A DNA stretch of 64,000 bases from the NCBI RefSeq assembly GCF_900089495.1, contig NZ_LT605203.1:2774319-2838318 (forward strand), given 5' to 3'. Shown here piece by piece: positions 5,973-23,006 of the stretch. The stretch comes from Thiomonas sp. X19. Its GTDB lineage: Bacteria; Pseudomonadota; Gammaproteobacteria; Burkholderiales; Burkholderiaceae_C. The notes under the pieces are model-generated. The model ran no database searches and was not told the DNA's origin. It was given only the letters and a program-made list of their open reading frames with translations. The position numbers were made by a program, and so were the translations under genes. How positions within the stretch are numbered: the first letter of the stretch is position 1; the number at the start of each line of letters is the position of its first letter.

Positions 5973-6692
5973 TCAATCCAGAAACTCGCAATGGGCTTCG
6001 ACGTGGTCTGCAAGGTCAAGCGAATGCTGGCGCACCAGCTTTTCCGCCAGCTCCGTGTCGCGCTGTTCCAGCGCCTCGATGATGCGCAGGTGATCGACGA
6101 TCGAGCGCGAGGCGCGGTCGCTTTGCGAAATGGTCATGCGCCGGATCGCCCGGACATGGATGAAGATGTTCTTGATAGCCTCCATGATGACCTGCGATTT
6201 CGACAACTGCACGATGGCTTGGTGAAAGGCGATGTTGGCGTCCGAATATTCCTGGATATGTTCGGCGGGGGTCGTGTCGCGGAAGTTGTCAAACATGTGC
6301 CGCAGCGACCGGATCTCCTCGTCGCTGGCCCGTTTGGTGGCCAGGCGCGCAGCCATGCTTTCGAGCGCTGCCCACATCTGGATCATTTCGACGATTTCGC
6401 GCTTGGTCTTGCGCACGACATAGATGCCGCGCCGCGGCACCATGCGCAGGAAGCCCTCCTGCTCGAGCAGGGTCATGGCCTCGCGGATCGGGGTGCGGCT
6501 GACGCCCAGCGCCTCGCTCAGGACGCGCTCGTCGAGACGGATTTCCTCGCGTGTCTGGTAGATGTCGGCATCGGCAATCGCCTGGCGCAGCATGGCATAG
6601 GCCTGATCGCGCAGGCTCGCGACCGGGTTGATCGGCTGCAGCGACCGGGTCAGGGTGTTGACCCGTGCTTCAGTTGGAGAAATGATGGACAT
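5973..6692 (-). CDS. GntR-family transcriptional regulator, FCD type
   Basis: A 239-residue regulator with an N-terminal winged helix (YAMLRQAIADADI through LSEALGVSRTPIREAMTLL, about residues 30-95) and a C-terminal FCD ligand-binding domain (from about residue 100, with the acidic and histidine residues that usually hold a metal, e.g. NIAFHQAI and IVDHLRIIEAL). FCD regulators usually sense small organic acids. It is the last gene of a minus-strand run and may control the nearby carboxylate cluster. The start has no clear ribosome-binding site but follows a small reading frame directly (TGAATG), suggesting coupled translation. Confidence 0.88.
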   Translation of the reverse strand: MSIISPTEARVNTLTRSLQPINPVASLRDQAYAMLRQAIADADIYQTREEIRLDERVLSEALGVSRTPIREAMTLLEQEGFLRMVPRRGIYVVRKTKREIVEMIQMWAALESMAARLATKRASDEEIRSLRHMFDNFRDTTPAEHIQEYSDANIAFHQAIVQLSKSQVIMEAIKNIFIHVRAIRRMTISQSDRASRSIVDHLRIIEALEQRDTELAEKLVRQHSLDLADHVEAHCEFLD

Positions 6693-7086: not shown

Positions 7087-8064
7087 TTATTGCCGCAGCA
7101 GCGCCATTTTCTCTCTCAGCTTGATGAGGGCGAGCACGGCATCGGCCAGTGGCGTCGGCCGGCCGACCAGGCGTCCGATTTCCTGGATCACGCCCAACAA
7201 GGGATCGATCTCCATCGGCCTGCCCTGCTCCAGATCCTGCAACATGGATGTCTTGTGGCCGACGATGGCGCCGGCCCCGTCCAGGCGCCGTTCGATCCCG
7301 ACCCGGAAGCGCACCCCCAGCAATTCGGCGAGTGCTTGCGCTTCCAGCATCATGCCGCGCGCCAGCGCGCGCGTCGCCGGGTCTGTGGTGATAACGTCCA
7401 GGGTCGCGTGCGTGAGCGCGCTGATGGGATTGAGGCACAAATTACCCCAGAGCTTGAGCCAGATCTCGTCGCGGATGTCGTTGCGAACCGGAGCGTCGAA
7501 CCCTGCGGCCGTCATCACTTCGTGCAGGCGGGCAATCCGCTCCGTGGACTGTCCGCTCGGTTCGCCGATGGGGAATTTCTTGCCATAGGCATGCTGGATC
7601 ACCCCAGGGGCGATGAGATCGGCCGCCGGGTACAGCACGCAGCCGATGCCGCGTTCGGGTCCCAGGATGTTCCACTGCAGGCCGCCAGGATCCACGCTGT
7701 TCAGTACGGTGCCCGCATACGGGCCGCCATGCTGATGGAAATACCAATAAGGCAGTCCGTTCACTCCGGTGACCACGGCGGTATCCTGGCCCAGCAGCGG
7801 GTGCATCGACTCGACCGCGCCAGGCACTGAATGAGCCTTGAGCGTGATGAAAACATAGTCCTGAGGACCGAGGTCGGCGGGATTCGAGGTGCACGGAACC
7901 CGGACCACATGCTCCTGGCCGTCGATCCGCAGGCGCAGCCCATTCGTTTGCATGGCCTGAAGATGCGCTCCCCTGGCGACGAAGCTCACGTCGATCCCGG
8001 CCCGGGCGAGCTGGCCTCCGATCAGGCCGCCAATGGCACCGGCGCCAAAAATACAAACTTTCAT
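7087..8064 (-). CDS. 2-dehydropantoate 2-reductase family protein (PanE-like)
   Basis: A 325-residue NADPH-dependent reductase. The N-terminal Rossmann motif CIFGAGAIGGLIGGQLA (residues 4-20) and the C-terminal helical domain with EIWLKLWGNLCLNPISALT match the ketopantoate reductase superfamily, including the conserved lysine (WLKLWGN) and asparagine. PanE makes pantoate for CoA synthesis, but many paralogues reduce other 2-keto acids to 2-hydroxy acids. Next to an acyl-CoA cluster both readings are possible. A good ribosome-binding site (AAAGGAGG) precedes the ATG. It lies between sucD and the GntR regulator on the same strand. Confidence 0.82.
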   Translation of the reverse strand: MKVCIFGAGAIGGLIGGQLARAGIDVSFVARGAHLQAMQTNGLRLRIDGQEHVVRVPCTSNPADLGPQDYVFITLKAHSVPGAVESMHPLLGQDTAVVTGVNGLPYWYFHQHGGPYAGTVLNSVDPGGLQWNILGPERGIGCVLYPAADLIAPGVIQHAYGKKFPIGEPSGQSTERIARLHEVMTAAGFDAPVRNDIRDEIWLKLWGNLCLNPISALTHATLDVITTDPATRALARGMMLEAQALAELLGVRFRVGIERRLDGAGAIVGHKTSMLQDLEQGRPMEIDPLLGVIQEIGRLVGRPTPLADAVLALIKLREKMALLRQ

Positions 8065-8260: not shown

Positions 8261-9157
8261 TCAGCGCAGTTTTTGGTGGATGAGTTGGCCCATTTCCGAC
8301 GGGTTGCGGGTGACGGTGAAGCCGCAGGCGTGCATCACGTCCAGCTTGGCTTCGGCGGTGTCGGCGCCGCCGGCGATGAGCGCGCCGGCATGGCCCATGC
8401 GCTTGCCCGCAGGCGCGGTGACCCCGGCGATGAAACCGACGATGGGCTTGGTCATGTGCTGCTTGGCCCAGAGCGCGGCCTCGGCCTCGTCGGGGCCGCC
8501 GATCTCGCCGATCGTGATGACGCCATCGGTGTCGGGGTCGTCGTTGAACAGCTTGAGCACGTCGATGTGCTTCAGACCGTTGATGGGGTCGCCGCCGATG
8601 CCCACCGCGCTGCTCTGCCCCAGCCCCAGCTCGGTGACCTGCCCCACCGCCTCGTAGGTCAGCGTGCCCGAGCGCGACACCACGCCGATGCGCCCCTTGC
8701 GGTGGATGTGCCCGGGCATGATGCCGATCTTGATTGCATCCGGCGTGATCAGCCCCGGGCAGTTCGGCCCCAGCAGCAGGGTGCGCTTGCCGCCGCCGGC
8801 CTCCTTGGCGCGCATCCTGGCGCGTACTTCCATCATGTCGCGCACCGGAATGCCCTCGGTGATGCAGATGACCAGATCGAGGTCGGCCTCGACGGCTTCC
8901 CAGATCGCCGCGGCCGCGCCGGGGGGCGGCACGTAGATGACGGAGACGGTGGCTCCGGTGGCCGCGCGGGCCTCGGCCACGCTGGCGTGGATGGGAATGC
9001 CCTCGAAGTCCTCCCCGGCCTTCTTCGGGTTGACCCCGGCGACGAAGGCGGCGCGGCCGTGGGCGTAGTCGCGGCACATGCGGGTGTGGAACTGGCCGGT
9101 CTTGCCGGTGATGCCTTGGGTGATGACTTTGGTGTTCTTGTCGATGAGGATGGACAT
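8261..9157 (-). CDS. sucD: Succinyl-CoA ligase (ADP-forming) subunit alpha
   Basis: A 298-residue protein, the usual length. It starts [20 protein letters not shown] (CoA-binding Rossmann region) and carries [21 protein letters not shown] and the active-site phosphohistidine loop [10 protein letters not shown] near residue 250. With SucC it converts succinyl-CoA, ADP and phosphate to succinate, ATP and CoA in the TCA cycle. The sequence is of the ordinary betaproteobacterial type, not an obvious malate-CoA ligase. It follows sucC in the same direction with a 145-bp gap. Confidence 0.93.
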
Positions 9158-9302: not shown

Positions 9303-10463
9303 TCAGGCCGCCGCGGCGACGACCTTCTGGGCGGCTTCGGCCAGGGTTTCGGCGCTGATGATGGGCAGGCCGGACTCGGCCAGCATCTGCTTGCCGATGT
9401 CCTCGTTGGTGCCCTTCATGCGCACCACCAGCGGCACCTTGAGCGCCACGGCCTGGCTGGCGGCAATCAGCCCTTCGGCGATGGTGTCGCAGCGCATGAT
9501 GCCGCCGAAGATGTTCACCAGGATGGCTTTGACATGCGGGTTGTGCAGCATGATCTTGAACGCGGCGGTGACTTTCTCGGCCGTGGCGCCGCCGCCGACG
9601 TCGAGGAAGTTGGCCGGCTCGCCGCCGAACAGCTTGATGGTGTCCATGGTGGCCATGGCCAGGCCGGCGCCGTTGACCAGGCAGGCGATGTTGCCGTCGA
9701 GCTGGATGTAGGACAACTCGTGCTTGGAGGCTTCGATCTCTGCGGGGTCTTCTTCGTCGAGGTCGCGCAGGGCTTGCAGCTCGGGGTGGCGGAACAGGGC
9801 GTTGTCGTCGATGTTGAACTTGGCGTCCAGGGCCTTGACGCTGCCGTCGCCTTGCACGATGAGGGGGTTGATCTCGGCCAGCGAGGCGTCGTTGTCCCAG
9901 AAGGCGCGGTACAGCCCTTGCAGGGCGGCGGCGCCTTGGGCCCGGCTGGCTTCGGGCAGGCCGATCTTGGCGCACAGGGCCAGCGCGTCGGCGTCTTGCA
10001 GGCCGGTGAGCGGATCGACCCACACCTTGTGGATCTTCTCGGGGCTGTGGGCGGCGACGTCTTCGACGTCCATGCCGCCCTCGCTGGAGGCCATCACCAC
10101 CACGCATTGCGCCGCGCGGTCGATCACCAGCCCGGCGTAGTACTCCTGGCGGATGTCGGCGCCTTCTTCGATCAGCAGCCGCCGCACGGTCTGGCCCGCA
10201 GGCCCGGTCTGGTGGGTGATGAGTTGCATGCCAAGCATCTGCCCGGCCAGGGTGCGCACCTCCTCCACCGAGCGCGCCAGCTTCACGCCCCCGCCCTTGC
10301 CGCGCCCGCCGGCGTGGATCTGCGCCTTGACCACCCACACCGGCCCGCCGAGTTGCTGCGCCGCATGCACGGCCTCATCCACCGTGTACGCGGGCGCGCC
10401 GCGTGGCACGGACACCCCGCATTCGCGCAAGATCTGTTTGCCCTGGTATTCGTGAATCTTCAT
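9303..10463 (-). CDS. sucC: Succinyl-CoA ligase (ADP-forming) subunit beta
   Basis: A 386-residue ATP-grasp subunit that binds the nucleotide and succinate. It begins [20 protein letters not shown], has the lysine and glycine ATP-binding region [19 protein letters not shown], and ends with the SucC segment [17 protein letters not shown]. Start ATG 10463 reproduces the family N-terminus; the upstream in-frame extension is not conserved. Housekeeping sucCD is usually not beside carboxylate transport genes, so it may have been recruited here to supply or recycle succinyl-CoA, but the proteins themselves look ordinary. Confidence 0.93.
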
Positions 10464-10770: not shown

Positions 10771-12102
10771 CTACTCGCCGGCTTGTAGCGGGAGATCGCG
10801 GAAATGTCGGGCATCCTCGCTTGCGGATTCGGCGCGCCGACCGATCCAGCGCCGCCGCATCGGGGCCAGGACCAGCTTTGCCGCCAACGCCGCGATGATC
10901 GAAGCCAGACCGGCGACGATGAACACCGCATTCCAACTGGAAGTGGCCGCCAGCACGCTGGCTAAGGGAACAAGCAGTGAAGCCGTGCCTTTTGCCGTGT
11001 AGAGAATCCCGGCATTGGTCGTTGCGTATTTCGAACCAAAAGTGTCGGCGTTAAGTGCCGGGAAAATCGAAAAGATCTCACCCCAGCAGAGAAAAATCAC
11101 CGGCGCGAGCACCATGAAAGCGTACGGATTATGGCCAAATTCCATCAAGCCGAGCAACGCCAATCCCTCACCAAAAAAGATAATGAGCATGGTGTTTTCT
11201 CTGCCGATTTTGTCCGATATGAATCCGCTCAAAGGGCGTGTAAAACCATTGGCCAGGTTATCGATGGCAAGCGTCATCGTCAGCAGGGGCAAGGTCAGGC
11301 CGAACAGCGCGATCGGCATCTTCGCGAATCCGTAGTCTTTTGCGATCGGTCCGATCTGGGCGGTGGCAATCAATCCGCCGGCTGCGACCGCGACAAAACA
11401 GGCATACATCATCCAAAATACCGGCGTCCTGACCATCTGGCCCGGCGTGTAATTTTCACGGCTGATCAGCACGGCTTTCGCTGCCATGGCGCCCTGAGGC
11501 GGTTGTGGCCTCACCATCAGCATCGCCAGAACAAAAATTGCGATGCCCTGCAAGGTTCCAAAGAAGAAAAAGGCGTGTTCGTAGCCGGCAGCGTGGATCA
11601 TGTTGGCAATCGGGATGACGGTGACAGCCGCACCGGCGCCAAAACCAGCAGCAGCCAAGCCAGCAGCCAAGCCCCTCCGGTCCGGAAACCATTTAAGCGC
11701 AATACCAACGCTGGTGCCGTAGACACAACCCACGCCGATACCGGCAACGACTGCCGCAAAATATAAGGCATGCAGCGATGCAGCATAAGAATTCAACACC
11801 CATGCCAAGCCGACGCAAATCGCGCCGAACGCAACGACCGGTCGCGGTCCAAACCTATCGACAAGCCAACCCTCCAGCGGGACCAGCCATGTTTCTGTCA
11901 GCACGAAAATCGAAAATGCAACCTGAATATCCGCAATACTCCAATGATATTTGGTATGTATCGGCGATACGAAAAGAGTCCATGCATACTGCAGATTGGC
12001 AACCAAACCCATGCAAACAATTGCCAATATAAGCTGAAACCAGCGATTATGTTGCCGCCCGGCAACATTTGAGTAACCGCCACCATTTTCTAGTCTCATC
12101 AT
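10771..12102 (-). CDS. MFS transporter of the oxalate/formate antiporter (OFA) family
   Basis: A 443-residue protein with about twelve hydrophobic helices. NRWFQLILAIVCMGLVANLQ then YAWTLFVSPI, VDRFGPRPVV, KWFPDRRGLAAGLAAAGFG and FISDKIGRENTM match the OxlT pattern closely in order and spacing. OxlT exchanges oxalate for formate; other OFA members carry different small carboxylates. The start at 12102 was chosen because CAGGAGA lies just upstream, inside the longer frame that begins at 12126. It is divergent from a LysR regulator, a common arrangement for a regulated transporter, and sits near an frc/ThDP operon that would use such a substrate. Confidence 0.85.
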   Translation of the reverse strand: MMRLENGGGYSNVAGRQHNRWFQLILAIVCMGLVANLQYAWTLFVSPIHTKYHWSIADIQVAFSIFVLTETWLVPLEGWLVDRFGPRPVVAFGAICVGLAWVLNSYAASLHALYFAAVVAGIGVGCVYGTSVGIALKWFPDRRGLAAGLAAAGFGAGAAVTVIPIANMIHAAGYEHAFFFFGTLQGIAIFVLAMLMVRPQPPQGAMAAKAVLISRENYTPGQMVRTPVFWMMYACFVAVAAGGLIATAQIGPIAKDYGFAKMPIALFGLTLPLLTMTLAIDNLANGFTRPLSGFISDKIGRENTMLIIFFGEGLALLGLMEFGHNPYAFMVLAPVIFLCWGEIFSIFPALNADTFGSKYATTNAGILYTAKGTASLLVPLASVLAATSSWNAVFIVAGLASIIAALAAKLVLAPMRRRWIGRRAESASEDARHFRDLPLQAGE

Positions 12103-12409
12103 TTGTCTCCTGTGGGTTTTGTGCATCCATTGTTTTCAAGCGCGTCGTGTGATCCTGGCGCATCGCGTTTCAATGCAGAATGGCGAGTGCTACCATTCGA
12201 AATCATCAAAGAGAAAACCGCGCATCCTCGACAACAGGCGCATCAGGCCGACCCAGCTGCAGCACCATCGGTGTTTACCCGGATATGGATGATGTCCGTC
12301 GGCGTGTTGACCTGCGACCCATGCTAGGTCTAAAGTCGAATTAGCAATAGTGAAAGTTTTTTATTATTATCATTACGCTTTATTGATGGATTGCGAACCA
12401 TGGTGAATC
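12103..12409. promoter_or_regulatory. Divergent promoter region between MFS transporter and LysR gene
   Basis: A 307-bp gap between divergent genes, with an unusually AT-rich block at about 12330-12385. A possible promoter for the LysR gene is TTGACC with CTAAAG 17 bp downstream (around 12309-12337). Shared control by the LysR protein is expected from the arrangement; I could not pick out a single convincing T-N11-A site. Confidence 0.4.
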
Positions 12410-13354
12410 ATGAGAAATGCCACTTTACGTCAGCTCAAGGTTTTCGAGGTTGTCGCACGACAGTTGAGCTTCTCGCGCGCTGCCGAGGAACTTCATCTCA
12501 CCCAGCCAGCGGTCTCGACTCAGGTTCGTCAATTGGAGGGGCATGTCGGCTTGCCGTTATTCGAACAGCTGGGCAAGAAAATTTATTTGACGCCGGCGGG
12601 GGTGGAAATGCTCCATTACAGCCGGGCAATCATCCAGCAATTTCACGAAGCCGACGAGGCGATGTCAAGACTGAAGGGAGTGTCGGGTGGGAAACTGAAT
12701 ATTGCCGTCATCAGTGCGGGAGATTATTTCTTCCCCCGCTTGCTGGCCGAATTCCTTCGTCGGCATCCGGGCGTGAGTCTGAATCTTGCTGTTTACAACC
12801 GGGAGGAGCTGCTGCATCAGTTGTCGGCCAATCTGACCGATCTGGCCGTCATGGTCCGGCCGCCGCAAGGCATCGACACGGTCAACCAATCGTTCGCGCC
12901 ACATCCGTACGTGATCGTGGCCGCGCCCGACCATCCACTCGTCGGCCAGCGCGACATCCCGCTCGAGGACCTGGGTTCCCAGTCCTTCATCGTTCGGGAG
13001 AAGGGGTCCGACACCTGGAACTCCATGGAGGAGGGTTTCGCCGGCCGCATCCGCAACCTGAAGATCGCCATGGAGATCAAGAGCACGGAGACCATCAAGC
13101 AAGCCGTGATTGCCGGCATGGGGATCGCTTTCCTGTCGGCGCATACCGTGAGCCTGGAACTCGAAGTGGGCAGGCTTGCCGTGCTCGATGTGGAGGGCTT
13201 CCCCGTCATGCTGAATTGGTATGTGGTGCATCGCAAAAGTAAACGACTCCCCCCTGTCGCCCAAGCGTTCAAGGAGTTCCTGATGCTTGAGGGCGCCAGT
13301 CTCATCCAAACCATCACCGGAATCCGAGGAAGGTTCGACATGCCGAAACCATAA
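12410..13354 (+). CDS. LysR-family transcriptional regulator
   Basis: A 314-residue LysR regulator. The N-terminal helix-turn-helix (TLRQLKVFEVVARQLSFSRA, then LHLTQPAVSTQVRQLE, residues 5-48) resembles CbbR-type members. The C-terminal effector domain runs from about residue 90, with the hinge near GGKLNIAVIS. It is divergent from the OFA-type transporter and so is its likely local regulator. Target and inducer are not known; a small carboxylate is the reasonable guess. The stop codon lies inside the stem of the following terminator. Confidence 0.9.
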   Translation: MRNATLRQLKVFEVVARQLSFSRAAEELHLTQPAVSTQVRQLEGHVGLPLFEQLGKKIYLTPAGVEMLHYSRAIIQQFHEADEAMSRLKGVSGGKLNIAVISAGDYFFPRLLAEFLRRHPGVSLNLAVYNREELLHQLSANLTDLAVMVRPPQGIDTVNQSFAPHPYVIVAAPDHPLVGQRDIPLEDLGSQSFIVREKGSDTWNSMEEGFAGRIRNLKIAMEIKSTETIKQAVIAGMGIAFLSAHTVSLELEVGRLAVLDVEGFPVMLNWYVVHRKSKRLPPVAQAFKEFLMLEGASLIQTITGIRGRFDMPKP

Positions 13355-13462: not shown

Positions 13463-13834
13463 ATGCAATCGATCAACGCGACGCCGGGTTATGCGGAACC
13501 CGGCATGATGGACCTGCCCAAGGATCTTCAAATCTATGCCTACAACGCCGCTTTCAGCGAATTGGGCCTTCGCTTTCGCTGGGATCCTGGCGTGCTGGAC
13601 AGTCTGGGCAGCATCCAGTGCGAAAAATCCCGTATTGCCGAGTTCATCCGGCAATACCATCCCCATTTGCTCAAATCCTATAATGCGGAATTCCTGAGCA
13701 CCCTGATTTACGAAAGAAAGAATGAATACCTTCGACTGCGCAGCATGCAGGATCAAGGGGAAGCCGCACATAACGCCCAAGGTGCGTCCAATCGAACCGT
13801 CGAACACACGCGGCAAGTTGCGCAGGTTAGCTAG
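13463..13834 (+). CDS. Hypothetical protein in the carboxylate cluster
   Basis: A 123-residue soluble protein I cannot assign. It has no signal peptide or membrane segment. The central part (DLPKDLQIYAYNAAFSELGL, then FRWDPGVLDSL and KSRIAEFIRQYHPHLL) looks helical and well ordered; the last 25 residues are polar and probably disordered. The start at 13463 has a good site (CAGGAG) 7 bp upstream. It lies between the LysR gene and the convergent operon, so it may be co-regulated with the transporter or a small accessory of the pathway. Confidence 0.6.
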   Translation: MQSINATPGYAEPGMMDLPKDLQIYAYNAAFSELGLRFRWDPGVLDSLGSIQCEKSRIAEFIRQYHPHLLKSYNAEFLSTLIYERKNEYLRLRSMQDQGEAAHNAQGASNRTVEHTRQVAQVS

Positions 13835-13854
13835 TCTGGTGAATCAGGAGTTGG

Positions 13855-14844
13855 TCAAGACGATTTTTCCAAGGTGCGCACTGCTTTATCAGTGTGCGTG
13901 CGCGGAAGCCGCCTCCGATAATAGGTACGGTAGACAACGGGTTTCATGCGGCCTGACGCGAAAAGCGGCCAGACGGATTTGTGCAAGGCCGATGCCATGG
14001 CGGCCTTGACCGCCAACGGCCTCGACCTGAGCGTGGACCCGGTCATCGTCAAACGTTTCACCATGACATCTCGCAGACTGATTTGCACCTGCCCGCCCAT
14101 CATGGTGTTGATGGACACCAGACGGCCATCGTCGGCCAATGCAGTGGCATTGCGCTGGAGATAATCGCCACCGACCATGTCGAGAATCACATCGACACCT
14201 TTTCCGCCGATGATCTGGCGGACCGCGGCGACAAAATCCTCAAGCGCATAATCGATGGCGTGCTCGGCCCCCAGGCGCTGGCAGAACGCGCATTTCTCCG
14301 CGCTGCCCGCGGTGACCAACACATGGCTGCCCAGGGCCTTTGCCATCTGGATCGCGGTCGCTCCGATGCCGCCGGATCCGCCATGGACCAAAAGCGTTTC
14401 GCCCTTCTGCAGATGGGCCCGTTCGAACACGTTGCTCCATACGGTCAAACAGGGTTCCGGCAGCGACGCGGCCTCCACGGCATTCAGGCCATCCGGGATC
14501 GGCAAGCAAAGCTCAGCGGGAGCAACGCAGTATTCGGCGTAGCCTCCGCCCGTCACCAGGGCACAGGCCTGTTCGCCGACCGCGGGGTGGTGAGCACCCT
14601 CCCCCTGCGCCACGATCCGCCCCGCCACCTCCAGACCGGGAATATCGGAAGCGCCGGGAGGCGGGGGATAGATGCCTTTGCGTTGCATGACGTCGGGCCG
14701 GTTCACTCCGGCGGCGGCAACCTCGATCAGGAGCGCGCCCGGCCCGGGTACGGGACGGGGCCGCTGGGCGATGCGCAGGACCTCGGGGCCGCCGGGCTGG
14801 CTGATCTCGACCGCTCGCATCATCGGCTGGCTGGCTGCGCACAT
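13855..14844 (-). CDS. Zinc-free MDR oxidoreductase (quinone oxidoreductase-like), altered C-terminus
   Basis: A medium-chain reductase of the NAD(P)H:quinone oxidoreductase/enoyl reductase type. Residues 1-300 look normal: AAAGVNRPDVMQRKGIYPPP, the nucleotide-binding LLVHGGSGGIGATAIQMAKA and GGDYLQRNATAL. The last about 25 residues (from YRTYYRRRL) do not fit. In another frame of the same strand, pieces of the expected end appear (EAASAHA, then SSAHLGKIVLTNS with a stop at 13844), separated by two in-frame stops. The 3' end has thus suffered at least one shift plus base changes. It is last in the ThDP-frc-synthetase operon, 39 bp after the synthetase. Activity is uncertain because the C-terminal strand helps close the fold. 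Confidence 0.75.
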   Translation of the reverse strand: MCAASQPMMRAVEISQPGGPEVLRIAQRPRPVPGPGALLIEVAAAGVNRPDVMQRKGIYPPPPGASDIPGLEVAGRIVAQGEGAHHPAVGEQACALVTGGGYAEYCVAPAELCLPIPDGLNAVEAASLPEPCLTVWSNVFERAHLQKGETLLVHGGSGGIGATAIQMAKALGSHVLVTAGSAEKCAFCQRLGAEHAIDYALEDFVAAVRQIIGGKGVDVILDMVGGDYLQRNATALADDGRLVSINTMMGGQVQISLRDVMVKRLTMTGSTLRSRPLAVKAAMASALHKSVWPLFASGRMKPVVYRTYYRRRLPRTHTDKAVRTLEKSS

Positions 14845-14883
14845 GTCCCTGTCCTCCCCGAGAGCGCGCAGGCCGGGGCCTGG

Positions 14884-17109
14884 TCAGATCAGGCCGGCGC
14901 CGCGCGCCCACTGGTACTTCGCGCCCAGAACCGCCACCGGGATCTCGGTCGAATAGGCATAGGCCGGGACGCCGTGCCGGTACAGATACTCGGCGGCCTC
15001 CTCAACCTCCACGTCGCCGGCAAGCGAGGCGACGATGGGTTTTTCGATGCCCCTGGCCATCATCTCCTCCTTGACCTCCACCACCAGCTTGGCGAACACC
15101 ATCGGCGGGGTGATGATGGTGTGCCAGTAGCCGAGGATGATGGCGTGGATGCGCGGGTCCTCGAGCCCGAGCCGGATGGTGTTGGCATAGGTGGCGGGCG
15201 GCTCGCCCCCGGTGATGTCGACCGGGTTGCCGGCCGCGCCGAACGGGGGGATGAACTTGCGGAAGGCGGCGTCGAGATCGGCCGGCATGGTCATCAGCGA
15301 CAGGCTGTTGTCGACGCAGGCGTCCGACAGCAGCACGCCGGAGCCGCCCGCGCCGGTGATGATGACGACGTTCTCGCCCTGCGGCGTCGGCAGCTTGGGG
15401 ATGCCGCGCGCGAATTCGAGCAGGTCGCGCAGCGAGCGGGCGCGGATCACCCCGGCCTGCTTGAACACGTCGTCGTAGATCTTGTCGTTGCCGGCGAGCG
15501 CGCCAGTATGGGATCTGGCCGCGCGCGCGCCCTGGCTGGTGCGGCCGGCCTTGAGCACCACCACCGGCTTTTTCTTCGAGACGCGCCGCGCCACTTCGGC
15601 GAACGAACGGCCGTCCTTCAGGTCCTCGAAGTGCTGGGCGATGATTTCGGTGTTCTCGTCCTGCTCGAAGAAGGTCAGCAGGTCGTCCTCGTCGATGTCC
15701 GATTTGTTGCCCAGCCCGACGATGGCCGAGACCCCCATGCCGGCCGAACGCGAGAAGCCGATGATCGCCATGCCGATGCCGCCGGACTGCGAGGACAGCG
15801 CCGCCTTGCCCTTGACGTCGTAGGCCGTGCAGAAGGTTGCGCACAGATTCTTCGGCGTGTAGTAGAAGCCGTAGATGTTCGGGCCCATCAGGCGAATGTT
15901 GAATTGGCGCGCGATGCGCACGAGCTCTGCCTGGCCTTCGACATTGCCGGTTTCGGCGAACCCCGAGGGAATCAGCACGGCGCCGGGAATGCCCTTTTTC
16001 CCGACCTCCACAAGCGCCTGGGCGACGAGCTTGGCGGGGATCGCGAACACCGCGACGTCGATGTCGCCGGGCACGTCGAGCACGCTCTTGTACGCCTTGC
16101 ATCCCATGATCTCGTCGGCCTTGGGATGGATCGGATAGATCTTGCCCTGGTAACCGCCGTTGATCAGGTTCTTCATGACCGAGTTGCCGATCTTGCGGTC
16201 CTCGGCCGAGGCGCCGATCACCGCCACCGTGCCCGGGCGCATGATGCGGTTCATCTGGCGCACGATCTCGTCCTGGCTCGGACGGTAGCGCTCGGGCTGC
16301 GGCGCGAAGTCGACGACGATGCGCACGTCGGCGGCCACCGCGCCCTTCGCGCTGGCGAACACGGGGTTCAGGTCCATTTCGGAGATTTCCGGGAAATCGG
16401 CAATCAGCTGCGAGACGCGCTGGATCATCGCCGAGAGCGCCTCGCGATCGGCCGGCTCGGAGCCGCGCACGCCCTTCAGAACTTGGGCGGCCTGGATGCT
16501 GTCGAGCATCGACATCGCCTCGTCCTGCGCCAGCGGCGCCAGGCGGAAGGTGATGTCCTTGAGCACCTCGACCAGAATCCCGCCGAGACCGAAAGCCACC
16601 AGCTTGCCGAAAGAGGGGTCGGTCACCGCGCCGATGATCACCTCCTGCCCGCCGCCGATCATCTGCTGCACCTGCACGCCGAGCAATCTGGCCTGCGCGT
16701 CGTACTTCCTGGCGTTGGCCATGATGGTCTTGAACCCGCGCTCGACCTCGGCCGCGGACTTGAGCCCGACGAGCACGCCGTCCGCCTCGGTCTTGTGCAG
16801 GATCTCGGGGGACACGATCTTCAGCACCACGGGAAACCCCATGGCCTGCGCAAGCCGGGCCGCGTCGGCCGCGGATTCGGCCACCCCCTCCTGCGGCACC
16901 GCGATGCCGTAGGCGTCGCACACCAGCTTGCCCTCGGGGGCAGTCAGCGCGGTACGTCCCGCGGCCTTCACCTGATCGAGCATGCGCCGCACGGCGGCCT
17001 TGTCGAAAACCGCCTGGGCCGAAGCCTGCGGTGCCGCACGCGTTGCGCCGCGGCCGCCCGCTTTCGGACCGGCCAAGGCCTGTCCCTCAATCGTTTCGTC
17101 GTATGCCAT
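14884..17109 (-). CDS. ADP-forming acyl-CoA synthetase (fused beta-alpha subunits)
   Basis: A 741-residue single-chain NDP-forming acyl-CoA synthetase. The ATP-grasp half comes first (residues about 30-250, with GFPVVLKIVSPEILHKTEAD and MDLNPVFA), followed by the CoA-binding half (GTVAVIGASAEDRKIGNSVM) and the succinyl-CoA-ligase-like domain with the likely phosphohistidine in ARSHTGALAGND. It can either activate an acid with ATP or run backwards to turn a thioester into ATP. In this operon the second use, harvesting energy from formyl-CoA or another product, is attractive but is inference. Start ATG 17109 follows a 61-bp gap after frc; the extension to 17331 overlaps frc and is rejected. Confidence 0.88.
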   Translation of the reverse strand: MAYDETIEGQALAGPKAGGRGATRAAPQASAQAVFDKAAVRRMLDQVKAAGRTALTAPEGKLVCDAYGIAVPQEGVAESAADAARLAQAMGFPVVLKIVSPEILHKTEADGVLVGLKSAAEVERGFKTIMANARKYDAQARLLGVQVQQMIGGGQEVIIGAVTDPSFGKLVAFGLGGILVEVLKDITFRLAPLAQDEAMSMLDSIQAAQVLKGVRGSEPADREALSAMIQRVSQLIADFPEISEMDLNPVFASAKGAVAADVRIVVDFAPQPERYRPSQDEIVRQMNRIMRPGTVAVIGASAEDRKIGNSVMKNLINGGYQGKIYPIHPKADEIMGCKAYKSVLDVPGDIDVAVFAIPAKLVAQALVEVGKKGIPGAVLIPSGFAETGNVEGQAELVRIARQFNIRLMGPNIYGFYYTPKNLCATFCTAYDVKGKAALSSQSGGIGMAIIGFSRSAGMGVSAIVGLGNKSDIDEDDLLTFFEQDENTEIIAQHFEDLKDGRSFAEVARRVSKKKPVVVLKAGRTSQGARAARSHTGALAGNDKIYDDVFKQAGVIRARSLRDLLEFARGIPKLPTPQGENVVIITGAGGSGVLLSDACVDNSLSLMTMPADLDAAFRKFIPPFGAAGNPVDITGGEPPATYANTIRLGLEDPRIHAIILGYWHTIITPPMVFAKLVVEVKEEMMARGIEKPIVASLAGDVEVEEAAEYLYRHGVPAYAYSTEIPVAVLGAKYQWARGAGLI

Positions 17110-17170
17110 CGTTGTCTCCAGAGTTGGGGGAGGATCGGCGCTCGCCTGCGGCAAGCGCTCCCAGGAATCG

Positions 17171-18418
17171 CTAAATCGCCCCGGCGGCGCGCAATGCAGA
17201 GATCTGCTCCGGGGTGTAGCCCAGTTCGGCCATGACTTCATCGGTGTGCTCGCCCAGCAGCGGGGAGCGCCTGACCTCGGTGGGGCTGTCCGAGAGCTTG
17301 ATCGGGTTGCCGACCGAGAGGTATTTGCCACGCTGGGGATGATCCACCTCGACGATGGTCCCGGTCCTGCGCAGCGACGGGTCCTGCGCGATCTCCTTCA
17401 TCGAAAGAATCGGCCCGCAGGGAATGTCGTGCTTGTTGAGGATTTCCATGGCCTCGAACTTGGTCTTGGTCATGGTCCACTGCTCGATCGCGGCGAACAC
17501 CTCCGACAGCCGCGGCAGCCGTGCGGCGGGTGTCGCGTAGTCGGGGTTGGAGATCCAGTCCTCCTTGCCGATGACCTTGCAGATCGACTCCCACACCGGT
17601 GCCTGCGTGATGAAGTAGATGTAAGCGTTCGGGTCGTGCTCCCAGCCCTTGCACTTCAGGATGGAGCCGGGCTGGCCGCCGCCCGAGGCGTTGCCGGCGC
17701 GCGGCACGGCTTCGCCGAACTTGCCGTTGGGGTATTGCGGGTATTCCTGCAGCACGCCGTTGCGCGCGAGCCGCTGCTGGTCGCGCAGCTTGACGCGGCT
17801 GAGGTTGAGGACCCCGTCCTGCATGGCCGCCATCACCCGCTGCCCGCGACCGGTACTGATCCTCTGATAGAGCGCCGTCACGATGCCGAGCGCGAGATGC
17901 AGGCCGGTACCGCTGTCGCCGATCTGGGCACCGGTGACCAGCGGCGGCCCGTCGTCGAAGCCCGTCGTCGAGGCGGAGCCGCCCGCGCATTGGGCAACGT
18001 TCTCGTAGACCTTGCAGTCTTCATAGGGTCCCGGGCCGAAGCCCTTGATCGAGGCGACGATCATGCGCGGATTGAGCTCCTGGATGCGCTCCCAGGTGAA
18101 CCCCATGCGGTCCAGCGCGCCCGGGGCGAAGTTCTCGACCAGCACGTCGCACATGCGCACCAGCGCCTCGAGAACCTCCTTGCCCTGCGGCGTCTTGGCG
18201 TTGATCGTCACCGACCGCTTGTTGTGGTTGAGCATCGTGAAATACAGGCTGTCCACGTCGGGTATGTCGCGCAGTTGCCCGCGCGTGATGTCGCCTTCTC
18301 CTGCGCGCTCGACCTTGACGACGTCGGCACCGAACCAGGCCAGCAACTGCGTGCAGGTCGGACCGGACTGCACATGCGTGAAGTCGAGGATGCGTACACC
18401 TTCCAATGCCTTGCCCAT
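17171..18418 (-). CDS. frc: Formyl-CoA:oxalate CoA-transferase-like class III CoA-transferase
   Basis: A 415-residue CaiB/BaiF (class III) CoA-transferase, close in length to known Frc/YfdW proteins (416-428). The catalytic aspartate is Asp168 in [16 protein letters not shown]. The glycine loop is present as [20 protein letters not shown] (around residues 241-260), and [18 protein letters not shown] and [11 protein letters not shown] also match Frc closely. Frc moves CoA from formyl-CoA (or succinyl-CoA) to oxalate. It lies 20 bp after the ThDP enzyme gene and 61 bp before the synthetase, in one operon. Oxalate is the best-supported substrate from this protein alone. Confidence 0.88.
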
Positions 18419-18438
18419 CTGGCTTCTCCCCGTGCTGT

Positions 18439-20196
18439 TTACTTGTACATGGTCTGGTTCTTCGTGCCCGGCGCGTACTCGCGCGGGTCGACCCAGATGT
18501 TGACCACGGCGGAGCGCCCGGTGCGGCGGATGGACTCGCGCGCGCGCCGCAGCGCCGCGGCGATCTGGCCCGGGTCGCGCACCTCCTCGCCGTAGCCGCC
18601 GAGCATCTCGGCGAACTTGCCGAACGGGATGTCGCCGAGCAGGTTGCCGACGTTGCCGCGCGCTTCGCCATATTTGGCCAACTGGCCATAGCGGATCTGG
18701 TTCATCGCCGAGTTGTTGCCGATGACCGCGAGGTAGGGCACGCCGAAGCGATTGGCCGTTTCCATGTCGAAGGCGGTCATGCCGAACGAGCCGTCGCCGT
18801 AGTAGCAGAGGACTTCCTTGCCCGGGCTGGCGAGCCCGGCGGCGATGGCAAAGCCGGTGCCCACGCCGAGCGAGCCGAGCGCCCCGGGGTCCATCCAGTG
18901 CCCGGGGCGGCGCGGGCGCACCGCCTGCGCCGAGATGGTGACCACGTCGCCGCCGTCGCCGATGTAGATCGTGTCGTCGGTCAGGAATTCGTTCAACTCG
19001 TAGGCCACGCGGTAGGGATGGATCGGCGTGTTCTCGGACCTGAACAGCGGCATGAGTTTTTGCGTGGCCACGTCCTCGGCCTCGGTCAACTGCTGCATCC
19101 ATTGGCGCCGCGCCTGGCGCTTGTCGTTCTTGATGCGGCCGCTGGCGGCCTGCAGCACGGCGCCGAGGATGGCGCCGGGATCGCCGACCAGGCCCAGGTC
19201 GATGTCGCGGTTCTTGCCGACGGTGCGGTAGTCCATGTCGATCTGCACCAGCGTCAGCTCTTTGCTGATGCGCTTGCCGTAGCCCATGCGGAAGTCGAAC
19301 GGCGTGCCGACGATGACGATGACGTCGGCGTTGGCGAAGGCCTGCGAGCGGGTGCGGTCGAAATGGTGGGGGTCGCCGGGCGGCAGCAGGCCGCGGCTGG
19401 CGCCGTTGAAATAGCCCGGGATGTCGAGCCCGCGCAGCAGCGCCACCGCCTCCACGTGGCCACGCGCGGTCCAGACCTGCTGGCCATAGAGGATGGCGGG
19501 CCGTTCGGCATTGACCAGGATGTCGGCCAGCTTCTCGATGTCGCGCGGGTCGCCGATCGACTTGGTCGAGGCGCGGTAGTGGCCGGGGCGTGGAATGATG
19601 GCACGGGCCGTATCGATTTCGCGGTCCAGCACATCGCGCGGAATTTCCAGATAGCTCGGACCCATGGCGCCGTTGAAGCATTCGCGCACCGCCATCGAAA
19701 TCATGTCCGCCACGCGCTCGGTGCTGGGCACGCTGGCGGCGAACTTGGTGATCGGGGCCATCATGTCCACATGGGGCAGATCCTGCAGCGAGCCCATCTT
19801 GTGCTGGCTGAGCGCACCCTGTCCGCCGATGTGCAGGATGGGGCTCTCGGAGCGGAACGCCGTGGCCACCCCCGTCACGGCGTTGGTGCAGCCCGGACCG
19901 GCGGTGGTCACCACGCAGCCCAGCTTGCCGGTCTGGCGGGCATAGCCGTCCGCGGCATGCGCGGCGACCTGTTCGTGGCGCACGTCGACGATGCGAATGC
20001 CCTCGTCGATGCAGCCGTCATAGATGTCGATGATGTGGCCGCCGCAGAGGGTGAAGATGGTGTCGACGCCCTCGTTCTTCAGTGCCCTGGCCACCAGGTG
20101 CCCGCCGGAAATGACTCCGGCCGCCCTGTTTTTCAGCTTCAGTGTGTCGTCGGCCGTGGTCGTTGCCGATTCTGCAATCCCCGCTACTGCTGACAT
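18439..20196 (-). CDS. ThDP-dependent lyase/decarboxylase next to frc (oxalyl-CoA decarboxylase-like role)
   Basis: A 585-residue three-domain thiamine-diphosphate enzyme. The catalytic glutamate is Glu75 in [18 protein letters not shown]; the ThDP/metal motif is [19 protein letters not shown] (GDG at 467-469) with NN at 494-495. By position beside frc it should be oxalyl-CoA decarboxylase, but the segments I know from Oxc and YfdU (GVVGIP near the N-terminus, NNGGIY after the ThDP motif) are absent; it reads FTLCGGHI and [11 protein letters not shown] instead. It looks more like acetolactate-synthase-like or 2-hydroxyacyl-CoA-lyase-like enzymes. Start ATG 20196 has a strong site (AAAGGAG). 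Confidence 0.7.
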
Positions 20197-20575: not shown

Positions 20576-21537
20576 CTGGGGGAGGTGGACGACATTCCGG
20601 TGATCATGCAAGATCGGCGCATTGCCGCCGCCGGCCCTGCACAACATGACCGGCATGATGGACCGCATGGGCATGAAGGGCGACCGCTTCCTGGTCAACG
20701 GCCGCGAACAGCCCTACGTGCGAGTGCCGGCGCGATGGGCGCGCTTGCGCCTGCTCAACGGCTCGAACGCGCGCGTCTACAACCTCGCCTTCGCCGACCG
20801 GCGCGCCTTTCACGTCGTCGCCACCGACGCCGGACTGCTGGCGTGGCCGGTGGAGGTGCGCAGCCCTGATGCTGCGCAGCGACTCGGGCGCGGTGGTGCC
20901 GGGCCTGAACACCATGCCGATGGGCGCCGACCGCTACGACTACGAGGGCTTCGACCTGATGCAATTGCGCGTGGTGGCGCCCAGCGGGCATGCGGGCGTG
21001 CTGCCCGCATGGCTGGCCGTAATCCCCGCGCTCCAGCCCGACGCCCCGGTGCGCCGCTTCAGCCTGCAGGGCATGATGGACGCCATGATGGGGGGAGGCG
21101 GCATGGCGGTGGGGTCGACGATGGGCGGCATGGGAGGTGGGCAGGACGCGCCCGCGGCCTCCGGCCCCGGTGGCATGAGCCTGGGAACCGGTGGACAGAA
21201 GCTGTTTTCCGTCGACCACCAGTTCATGAACATGGCGCGGATCAACCAGTGGGTGCGCCTGGGCAGCACCGAGGTCTGGGAAGTGAGCAACGACGGGAAC
21301 ATGGCCCACCCTTTCCACTTCCACGGCACCTCGTTCCAACTCCTCGCCCGCAACGGCGCCGCGCCGCCCGAGCATGAGCGCGGCTGGAAGGACACGGTGC
21401 TGGCGCGCCACGCCGAAACCGTGCGCCTGATCGCCCGCTTCGGCCAGCCCGCCGGGCCGTCCCATCCCTTCATGTACCACTGCCACATCCTCGAACACGA
21501 GGACAACGGCATGATGGGGCAGTTCAGCGTGGCGTGA
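20576..21537 (+). pseudogene. Multicopper oxidase (CueO/CopA type), 5'-truncated and frameshifted
   Basis: Remnant of a periplasmic copper oxidase. The recognisable sequence begins at about 20579 with EVDDIPVIMQDRR, equivalent to the middle of the protein, so the signal peptide and first cupredoxin domain are missing. Three frames are needed to read it: EVDDIPV, then KGDRFLVNGREQPYVRVPAR, then the rest from about 20869. The last part is well preserved: a Met/Gly-rich loop, the copper ligands HPFHFHGTSFQLL, and MYHCHILEHEDNGMMGQFSV at the end. The intact copA at 32.7-34.5 kb would cover its function. Confidence 0.8.
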
Positions 21538-21564
21538 ACTCGGCGGGCGCGCGTTCTCGGCGGC

Positions 21565-22269
21565 TCAGGCCTGTTCGCGGCACTGCTGGGCCAGCGCCAC
21601 CAGCGCCTCGCGCACCTCGCCCGCGTTGTGCACCGGCGCGGCGAAATCGATGCGCAGCAGCCGGCCGTCGGCGCGCAGGTCGAAGCCGTCGGTGTCCACC
21701 CCGACCATGCTTACCTCCTGCGCCTGCACGCCGTGGAGATGGGCGCAGTAGGCCCTCAGGTTGTGCACATGGTCAGCGTTCATGTGGGCGAGGATGCCGG
21801 GCTCGGCCTGCTCCAGGCTGTTGGCCGGAGGGGCGAAATCGGCCGGAGCGATCCAGTGGATCTTGCCGAAGCCGCCGATGAAGCGCACCGCTTCCACCTC
21901 GATGCGGTAGAAGAAAAAATCGTGCATGCCGAAGTAGCCATCGGCCTCGGGCAGGTAGCGCAGATAGCGCGAGCCCGGCGCATCCTTGTCCGCCAGGCGG
22001 CTCGCACGGCCGACGAGGGTGACGCGCCCCGCCGCCTGCGCATCGTCGGCGCAGGGGTGGGCGATGATGCTGGCGCGCGGGTCGGCGTCCAGGTTCTTGG
22101 TGTGCTCGGCCAGGGTTGAAATCAAAATCACCGGCCGACCCTGGTGGTCGAGCATGAACGGCGCGATCGAGCCGAAGGGCATGCCGCCGAGGCGTTTCGA
22201 CAAGGTGGACAGCACGCCGTTGGGATGGGCGCGGACGAATTGGCGGGCTTCGAGGCCGAGATCGTGCAT
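21565..22269 (-). CDS. HugZ-like pyridoxamine-phosphate-oxidase-fold protein with DUF2470
   Basis: A 234-residue protein. The N-terminal split-barrel domain (LSTLSKRLGGMPFGSIAPFM, VILISTLAEHTKNLDADPRA) matches the pyridoxamine-phosphate-oxidase/HugZ fold; the C-terminal DUF2470-like domain has ILAHMNADHVHNLRAYC, usually part of heme-handling members. HugZ-type proteins bind and degrade heme; related ones bind flavin. A heme or flavin role is inferred from the fold. It is intact although decayed genes lie on both sides. The start is a plain ATG at 22269. Confidence 0.75.
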   Translation of the reverse strand: MHDLGLEARQFVRAHPNGVLSTLSKRLGGMPFGSIAPFMLDHQGRPVILISTLAEHTKNLDADPRASIIAHPCADDAQAAGRVTLVGRASRLADKDAPGSRYLRYLPEADGYFGMHDFFFYRIEVEAVRFIGGFGKIHWIAPADFAPPANSLEQAEPGILAHMNADHVHNLRAYCAHLHGVQAQEVSMVGVDTDGFDLRADGRLLRIDFAAPVHNAGEVREALVALAQQCREQA

Positions 22270-22402
22270 GGGTGTGGACCTGGTGTAGGGGGTTGCGCGG
22301 CCGGGCGGCGTCTAGGGCCTGTCCCACGTATGGCCATTGTGCCGCCCCCGTGGCGACTCCACAGGTGAGGGGGCGGCGATGGCGGCGAACCCCGCGGCCT
22401 GC

Positions 22403-22951
22403 TCAGCTTGCCGCCAGCAGATGCTCGACCTCGGCGAAGTTCTGCGCCCGCTCCGACGCCTCGCTCGGCGCGCCGAGCGGGCGTCCGATCTGGGTGGTGG
22501 AGAAGATGCCGCGGATCGCGGATGGTCGGCACCGGGCCTTGTTCGAGCGCCAGGGAGTGCCGCACCTCGCTGTAGTCCAGCACCTGGATGCGCTCGCGCG
22601 GCACCATCACCCGCGCTGCCGTCACCGCGTCGCGCGCGAGGCCATCGTCCACCGCGATGCGGATCGGTTTCTCGCTGAGCAGGTCGCGCGCGGTGACCAG
22701 GCCCAGCACGTTGCCGCTCATATCGGTCACCAGCAGCAGGCGCACGCGGGCGTGGATCATGCGCTGCTGCGCCGCCTCCATATCGGCGAGGGTAAAGAGA
22801 TGGAATCTGCCGGTGAGCGCCCCCACGGCAGGCGCGCGTGGCGCAGGCGCAGTGCGTCGTCGAGGAACGCGAACATGAAATTTTGCAGCATGTTGGCCAC
22901 CGTCGCGAGCGACAACTGGCGCGCCGTGGCGATGCCGGTCTTGTCATGGAC
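22403..22951 (-). pseudogene. CBS-domain protein, frameshifted
   Basis: A small CBS-pair protein broken in at least two places. The pieces are: near 22891 MLQNFMFAFLDDALRLRHA; a second frame with FTLADMEAAQQRMIHARVRL then LLVTDMSGNVLGLVTARDLL; and a third with RGIFSTTQIGR running to EVEHLLAAS and a TGA at 22403. Read together they make a plausible protein with two CBS motifs, whose usual role is to sense adenine nucleotides. It lies between the HugZ-like gene and the copper ATPase. Confidence 0.65.
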
Positions 22952-23006
22952 CCGGCTCGGCGCGGGCCCGAGCCGGCCCCAGCCGAGGAATCATCTCCTG
23001 GCCGCC

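Follow-up and report, generated by a model that had tools for sequence, protein, structure and literature searches.

Gene organization of the locus

The window analysed here, a stretch of 64,000 nucleotides from the 4.67 Mb genome of Thiomonas sp. X19, was found to contain a probable oxalate gene cluster with a thiamine diphosphate (ThDP)-dependent enzyme of 585 amino acids (18439..20196, minus strand), which is proposed from family scores, alignment and tree as an oxalyl-CoA decarboxylase of a second family. Its gene was followed on the same strand by frc, encoding a formyl-CoA:oxalate CoA-transferase of 415 amino acids (17171..18418; TIGR03253, 727.8 bits, cut-off 504.2), by the gene of an ADP-forming acyl-CoA synthetase of the acetate--CoA ligase family with 741 amino acids (14884..17109) and by that of an MDR/PIG3-type quinone oxidoreductase of 329 amino acids (13855..14844; TIGR02824, 437.5 bits, cut-off 296.8). 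The order that the first-pass annotation gave for these four genes was confirmed at 20196-13855 of the minus strand. The frc gene was the sole TIGR03253 match above cut-off in the window genome, and its product contained the GGGQPG loop. The synthetase was found to contain ATP-grasp, CoA-binding and ligase domains (Pfam) and the SHTGALAG motif from residue 533, whose histidine presumably has a role in ADP-forming synthetases, but no named equivalog was found above cut-off in the profile search.

Beyond the oxidoreductase gene, the plus strand contained a conserved open reading frame (ORF) of 123 amino acids (13463..13834) without a Pfam or NCBIfam match, which forms the first 372 bases of the interval 13463-20196 as a separate gene and adjoins the gene of a LysR-family (CbbR-like) regulator identified in domain searches (12410..13354, plus strand). 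These were followed on the minus strand by the presence of an OFA-family oxalate/formate antiporter-like (OxlT-type) MFS transporter (10771..12126; TIGR04259, 608.9 bits, cut-off 335), a sucC-like gene for the beta subunit of ADP-forming succinate--CoA ligase (9303..10460; 575.2 bits, cut-off 370), a sucD-like gene for the alpha subunit (8261..9157; 450.3 bits, cut-off 336) and a PanE/ApbA-family reductase (7087..8064). The sucC-sucD-panE block (10460-7087) adjoins the cluster and was absent from the first-pass annotation, which had placed LysR and GntR regulators nearby; the LysR gene was indeed found close to the cluster, whereas the GntR (FCD) regulator, assigned by family match, was peripheral and farther off (5973..6692, minus strand). 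The indication of oxalate drawn from frc and the transporter was upheld, both being above their curated cut-offs.

Family scores and phylogeny of the ThDP enzyme

The ThDP enzyme was found to score below the cut-off of each family model considered. It reached 224.3 bits on the canonical oxalyl-CoA decarboxylase (Oxc) model TIGR03254 (cut-off 739.4), 353.6 bits on the 2-hydroxyacyl-CoA lyase (HACL) model NF058623 (cut-off 600), on which a Methylibium petroleiphilum protein used as positive control reached 741.8 bits, and 288.1 bits on the acetolactate synthase model TIGR00118 (cut-off 538). Its highest NCBIfam score, 436.8 bits, was obtained with the PRK05858 'acetolactate synthase' model (NF004516, cut-off 587), on which three more divergent relatives scored 472-518 bits. 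We take PRK05858 to be the mycobacterial IlvG/Rv1820 type, with P66947 presumably among its members. The nearest solved structure by sequence was that of AcHACL (269 bits), followed by Oxc (186 bits).

A maximum likelihood tree of 54 rows was built with 25 rows of the ThDP family, whose other members were 51-97% identical to the window protein, 15 rows of Oxc and two rows of IlvI-type acetolactate synthase; it contained no PRK05858 member and no mycobacterial sequence. In this tree the ThDP family and Oxc were found as distinct clades, both with 100/100 support. The RuHACL/HACL1-type proteins were the sister of Oxc, and the ThDP family was placed outside the clade of Oxc and HACL1. It was grouped weakly with AcHACL, as a sister at 93/84 that was not starred and involved long branches; because several long branches meet in the tree, the deeper sister relation is tentative. 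A joint clade of the ThDP family and Oxc was rejected in the approximately unbiased (AU) test (p 2e-6), as was a clade of the ThDP family with the two IlvI-type rows (AU p 1e-5). The earlier view that the enzyme is not a textbook Oxc and lies closer by sequence to the HACL and acetolactate synthase side was thereby supported by the scores, by the nearest structure and by its separate clade, which was neither inside Oxc nor with the IlvI-type enzymes.

Conserved residues of the active site

The ThDP-activating glutamate (E56 of OfOXC) was found to be conserved in all 17 rows shown, eight of them from the ThDP family. Tyr120, Glu121 and Tyr483 of OfOXC were replaced by Leu, Gln and Asn in the eight inspected ThDP-family rows, followed by the presence of N (seven rows) or S (one row) at the S553 position and of T (eight rows) at the R555 position, where the C-terminal columns are gappy. 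The acid/base Glu493 of AcHACL was shared by the Methylibium protein but was Ile in all eight rows, and the Gln at the E121 position was found to be the counterpart of Gln128 of AcHACL. With the activating glutamate kept and the Oxc and AcHACL residues replaced, the ThDP enzyme therefore fits neither known active-site pattern. The residue roles follow PMC8760513 and PMC7190790; for these and all papers cited below, statements refer to excerpts of the published text.

Among 105 loci tried, the reading frame was recovered in 104, of which 103 contained NNxx[MW]NQIRxGQ and 101 contained QTMYK at the C-terminus. The GVVGIP- and NNGGIY-like segments, reported as lacking in the first-pass annotation, were indeed not present in the ThDP enzyme, their counterparts being FTLCGGHI and a segment of 13 residues. 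Arg502 of the NQIR motif, which also contains Gln500, and the C-terminus may be candidates for holding the oxalyl carboxylate.

Linkage to frc and the gene neighbourhood

Of at least 587 related loci, the best 80 were compared, which had 79-97% identity to the window ThDP protein. After five loci with too little downstream sequence had been dropped, the ThDP gene was directly followed by frc in all 75 that offered 900 bases or more on that side. In the two order-wide samples described below (597 genomes), all 34 genomes bearing the ThDP gene had frc behind it on the same strand, at a distance of 16-277 bp. The linkage is far beyond chance, and the recurrent association with frc suggested by the earlier reading was thus borne out. 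In G006, two ThDP copies with equal scores were found about 16 kb apart (C1:2351717-2353456 and 2368126-2369865; L129, L130), only the second of which adjoins frc.

Neighbourhoods were counted in the 45 loci flanked by 8 kb or more on either side (tblastn, E <= 1e-8, query coverage of 40% or more, with identity floors of 45% for OFA, 55% for LysR and 50% for Frc). Frc was present in 45 loci, OFA in 39, LysR in 36, the 123-aa ORF in 34, the synthetase in 28, PanE in 27, SucC in 20, SucD in 19 and the MDR reductase in four. The MDR reductase was therefore rejected as a pathway member. Relatives of the 123-aa protein were also found in some canonical-Oxc clusters (L108, L111, L120). Two different sucCD pairs per cluster were found in L067, L079, L082, L083, L106 and L162 (including Labrys and Phyllobacterium), about 40-47% and 52-58% identical to the window pair, one of which may differ in carboxylate specificity.

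The cluster was also found to cross phyla. Plasmid p1 of Streptomyces fungicidicus contained sucD-sucC, the ThDP gene, frc, acetate--CoA ligase and OFA in this order; its ThDP protein was 66% identical to that of the window and was annotated merely as a thiamine pyrophosphate-binding protein. The orthologue of C. metallidurans CH34 showed 90% identity to the window protein.

Co-occurrence with canonical Oxc

The order-wide samples comprised 300 genomes from the window's order and 297 from that to which Labrys okinawensis (L067, G330) belongs. In each genome the best four (ThDP enzyme, Oxc) or five (frc) first-look candidates were scored, ThDP relatives being accepted at E <= 1e-150 and Oxc and frc above their curated cut-offs. 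The window's order was found to contain a ThDP relative in 12 genomes, canonical Oxc in 52 and frc in 66, and the second order contained them in 22, 60 and 85 genomes, respectively. All Oxc genomes of both samples also contained frc. Among the 151 frc genomes, 33 had the ThDP enzyme only, 112 had Oxc only (including G550, with a truncated hit below cut-off), one had both (G237) and five had neither (Fisher p 8e-27, kinship not corrected for). No Oxc hit was thus found in 33 of the 34 ThDP genomes, including the window genome, in which the profile search gave no match above the Oxc cut-off and a best score of 224 bits.

A further search covered the 78 genomes behind the related loci, two of the 80 loci lying outside it. 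No Oxc match at E <= 1e-150 was found in 70 of these genomes, seven contained a match above cut-off and one a partial match. The 9.5 Mb genome of Burkholderiaceae bacterium 16 (G302, L019) was found to contain the ThDP gene and three canonical Oxc genes, and may be a mixed assembly.

Positional exchange of the ThDP and Oxc genes

Canonical Oxc was found in the same slot as the ThDP gene within otherwise similar clusters. Locus L120 contained LysR (65%), the small ORF (36%), Oxc, Frc (85%) and the synthetase (78%), and L108 contained OFA (68%), LysR (82%), the small ORF (58%), SucCD, Frc, Oxc, Frc and PanE (71%), followed by the presence of an annotated oxc-frc-acetate--CoA ligase arrangement in Skermanella mucosa. 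Frc proteins from beside the ThDP gene (61) and from beside Oxc (27) were placed in a tree of 88 rows, built by a quick method with SH-aLRT support only, in which the decarboxylase partner was found to switch 13 times on the best tree and at least five times on well-supported branches.

Oxalate phenotype and one-carbon neighbours

B. kururiensis LMG 19447, B. tuberum LMG 21444, B. phenoliruptrix LMG 22037 and B. graminis LMG 18924 were listed as oxalate-positive in the excerpt of Kost et al. 2014 (PMC3886118). Paired with the first three through the strain number, the Paraburkholderia genomes P. kururiensis (L026/G308), P. tuberum (L038/G314) and P. phenoliruptrix (L047/G359) were all found to carry the ThDP gene; no Oxc match was found in these draft genomes, in a search that was not aimed at OxdC or further oxalate enzymes. 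The genome of P. graminis C4D1M (L044/G316), which we take to be LMG 18924, also contained the ThDP gene and no Oxc match. In B. phytofirmans, disruption of oxc abolished growth on oxalate (PMC3886118). In C. necator, deletion of frc-oxc abolished oxalate growth, and deletion of apbA2, a PanE2-like gene near frc-oxc, slowed it (Claassens et al. 2020, PMC7486775). By analogy with this apbA2 result, the PanE-family gene of the window is a candidate for an oxalyl-CoA reductase of the PanE2/ApbA2 type.

Elsewhere in the window genome, Gcl, Hyi and Tsr were found above their cut-offs in a cluster, beside a glycerate kinase-like gene below cut-off. At least one of four one-carbon queries was matched in 58 of 139 loci, and none of the four was matched in the window. 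A formyltransferase-like gene and formate--tetrahydrofolate (THF) ligase were found behind ThDP-frc in four small, AT-rich members of the second order (66-69% identity), one of which (L154) additionally had genes for a NuoF-like subunit and formate dehydrogenase alpha there. The formyltransferase-like gene was found after frc in both ThDP and Oxc clusters. In Thiomonas delicata (L016), the closest named relative found, the ThDP protein was 97% identical to that of the window, and its gene was preceded at about 1.4 kb, on the same strand, by one for formate dehydrogenase alpha (950 bits, cut-off 666). These one-carbon neighbours, together with Gcl-Hyi-Tsr, favour formyl-CoA or formate as the probable product over a carboligation product, and a lyase would also fit them.

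Several further observations concern these genes. The place of the formate dehydrogenase genes of T. delicata was occupied in the window, upstream of the oxalate operon, by a short multicopper-oxidase C-terminal ORF (20869-21537, plus strand) and an ORF read from the sequence as P-type metal ATPase-like (23007-25430, minus strand), together spanning 20869-25430. The formyltransferase-like protein resembles methionyl-tRNA formyltransferase (L154, 7069-7974, minus strand), such proteins scoring 165-173 bits on TIGR00460 (cut-off 201.5). Its gene was found directly after frc in L131-L139 and in the canonical-Oxc loci L113-L115, L117, L118, L122, L123, L125 and L127, in some clusters together with formate--THF ligase, and the protein might pass formyl groups from formyl-CoA to tetrahydrofolate or back. 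Ten small genomes of the second order (1.3-1.6 Mb; G380, G426, G459, G487, G512, G535, G555, G571, G588, G605) contained ThDP-frc with a spacing of 16-27 bp. Their GC content was 34-37% in two stretches measured, and one-carbon genes were found to follow ThDP-frc in the four stretches fetched (L154-L157). These genomes would represent oxalate use in apparently streamlined bacteria.

CoA thioesters and ATP

The first-pass annotation had proposed that the thioester is saved as ATP through the ADP-forming synthetase and that this would be unusual. This feature was not retained: the synthetase was also found beside canonical Oxc (L120, L151, L163, L164, L168) and therefore marks no new pathway, SucCD likewise occurs beside canonical Oxc, and formyl-CoA is needed for the next oxalate. 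Since each formyl-CoA activates the next oxalate via Frc, no surplus thioester would arise if all oxalyl-CoA were decarboxylated, and where oxalyl-CoA is diverted to glyoxylate a thioester must be supplied. SucCD, as a succinyl-CoA donor, and the ADP-forming synthetase would thus more plausibly be feeders than savers of thioesters, and an ATP-consuming priming role of the synthetase is at least as likely.

Interpretation and alternative explanations

The oxalate reading of the cluster is strongly supported, and the window very probably contains a cluster for oxalate catabolism and assimilation in which the decarboxylase belongs to a second, phylogenetically separate family with a different active site. 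This reading is based on the phylogeny, the near-exclusivity with Oxc, the positional exchange and the published phenotypes. The OFA transporter would import oxalate, and Frc would transfer CoA from formyl-CoA onto oxalate to give oxalyl-CoA and formate. The ThDP enzyme would then convert oxalyl-CoA to formyl-CoA and CO2 in the place of canonical Oxc, its proposed active-site solution being the NQIR helix and the QTMYK C-terminus instead of Tyr120, Glu121, Tyr483 and Ser553 of Oxc. The PanE-family enzyme may reduce part of the oxalyl-CoA, and the glyoxylate so formed would enter the Gcl/Hyi/Tsr route, whose genes lie in another part of the genome; the CoA thioesters lost at this branch may be replaced by SucCD, the ADP-forming synthetase or both.

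Several observations weigh against this reading. Eight of the 78 related genomes also carry a full or partial canonical Oxc, and the ThDP enzyme could therefore do something else there; five of the 151 frc genomes contained neither enzyme (G029, G100, G268, G442, G580); and the genome searches for a decarboxylase covered Oxc and the ThDP family. Since only a few candidates were scored per genome, an Oxc could be missed, but hardly in the pattern observed. Partner labels on the frc tree were more clustered than shuffled ones (13 switches, where 500 shuffles averaged 23.5 and none gave so few), and frc and its decarboxylase therefore also travel together. In canonical OXCmm, loss of each of Y126, E127 and Y485 left about 10% activity (excerpt of PMC7190790). 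The ThDP family has no counterparts of these residues and must therefore handle the chemistry differently. The family has Gln at position 121 and Ile at position 493, and Val or Ile at the latter position is also found in enzymes that do not simply protonate their carbanion.

This resemblance bears on an unlikely alternative, in which the family is an oxalyl-CoA-dependent carboligase that decarboxylates its substrate and couples the one-carbon carbanion to glyoxylate or to a different aldehyde; the tartronyl-CoA or other 2-hydroxyacyl-CoA so formed could be converted to the acid and ATP by the neighbouring ADP-forming synthetase. The two positions are like those of the carboligases tabulated in the excerpt of PMC13327070, where Val or Ile at the E493 position was also given for acetolactate synthase, pyruvate oxidase and glyoxylate carboligase. 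The synthetase is adjoining in 28 of the 45 well-flanked loci, and the PanE-family reductase could provide glyoxylate. However, canonical Oxc likewise has the synthetase, PanE and SucCD as neighbours, Frc requires a formyl-CoA donor, and the formate--THF ligase and formate dehydrogenase genes after frc in some loci point to formyl-CoA or formate as product. The family moreover replaces Oxc, and the deletion of oxc together with frc abolished the oxalate growth of C. necator (PMC7486775).

It is still less probable that the ThDP enzyme is a 2-hydroxyacyl-CoA lyase, for which Frc or the synthetase would load a short 2-hydroxy acid onto CoA and from which formyl-CoA and an aldehyde or ketone would be released. 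AcHACL was its nearest solved structure (269 bits against 186 for Oxc) and its weak neighbour in the tree (93/84), the conserved Gln is as in HACLs, the formate genes after frc would fit, and some HACLs also have no E493 homologue, human HACL2 containing Ile there (excerpt of PMC13327070). Nevertheless, the enzyme reached 353.6 of the 600 bits of the HACL cut-off, Glu493 was Ile in the eight inspected rows, and the near-exclusivity with Oxc, the OxlT-type antiporter and the oxalotrophic strains without a detected Oxc would be left unexplained. The 2-hydroxy acid considered as substrate in the first-pass annotation was not supported, since the AcHACL glutamate is Ile here and the enzyme stands in for Oxc. 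An accessory role of the ThDP enzyme, for example on another CoA-bound dicarboxylate, with a further unrecognised enzyme decarboxylating oxalyl-CoA, is highly improbable: both enzymes occur, fully or in part, in eight of 78 genomes and in one of 34 in the order-wide samples, but a third enzyme would be needed in exactly those genomes without Oxc, which comprise 33 of the 34 sampled ThDP genomes including that of the window.

Comparison with known systems

The second-family decarboxylase proposed here resembles canonical Oxc/YfdU (TIGR03254; OfOXC 2c31, EcOXC 2q27, MeOXC 7ayg) in its probable reaction, the ThDP fold, Glu56, the frc partner and the interchangeable gene position. It differs in its separate clade, its score (224 bits against 739), the L/Q/N in place of Y120/E121/Y483, the lack of clear counterparts of S553 and R555, and its own NQIR and QTMYK motifs. 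The Oxc active site was described as highly conserved in excerpts of surveys (PMC7190790, PMC10192776). AcHACL/HICL (NF058623; 7pt1, actinobacterial-type) shares with the window enzyme the Gln128 counterpart and is its nearest solved sequence and weakly supported sister. It differs in the family score and in Glu493, and its partners are hcl/mpd (excerpt of PMC7176365) whereas oxalate genes are found beside the window enzyme. PRK05858 gave the highest score, although below its cut-off. The mycobacterial entry P66947 contains Glu at the E493 position (excerpt of PMC13327070), in contrast to the Ile of the ThDP family.

With the oxalate assimilation of C. necator and M. extorquens (the Frc, Oxc, PanE2/ApbA2 and Gcl route), the window genome shares Frc, the PanE-family reductase and Gcl-Hyi-Tsr, and apparently differs in the decarboxylase family. 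Among the matches listed in a search of titles and abstract beginnings of open-licence literature, no report of a second Oxc family was found. Databases appear to name the ThDP enzyme merely as a thiamine-binding protein, and the same replacement of Oxc seems to recur in many other bacteria.

In CoA-dependent oxalate degradation, Oxc is regarded as the key gene. If the proposed reading is true, about one fifth of the frc genomes in the two sampled orders (34/151) use an enzyme that is not counted by Oxc-based surveys, and published oxalate degraders are among the genomes missed. The ThDP superfamily would then have evolved oxalyl-CoA decarboxylation at least twice, each time with a different active site, and the family would provide a new CoA-dependent one-carbon scaffold for the engineering of carbon fixation. 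If the enzyme were instead a carboligase, nature would already possess the kind of one-carbon condensation that engineering efforts aim to derive from Oxc and HACL.

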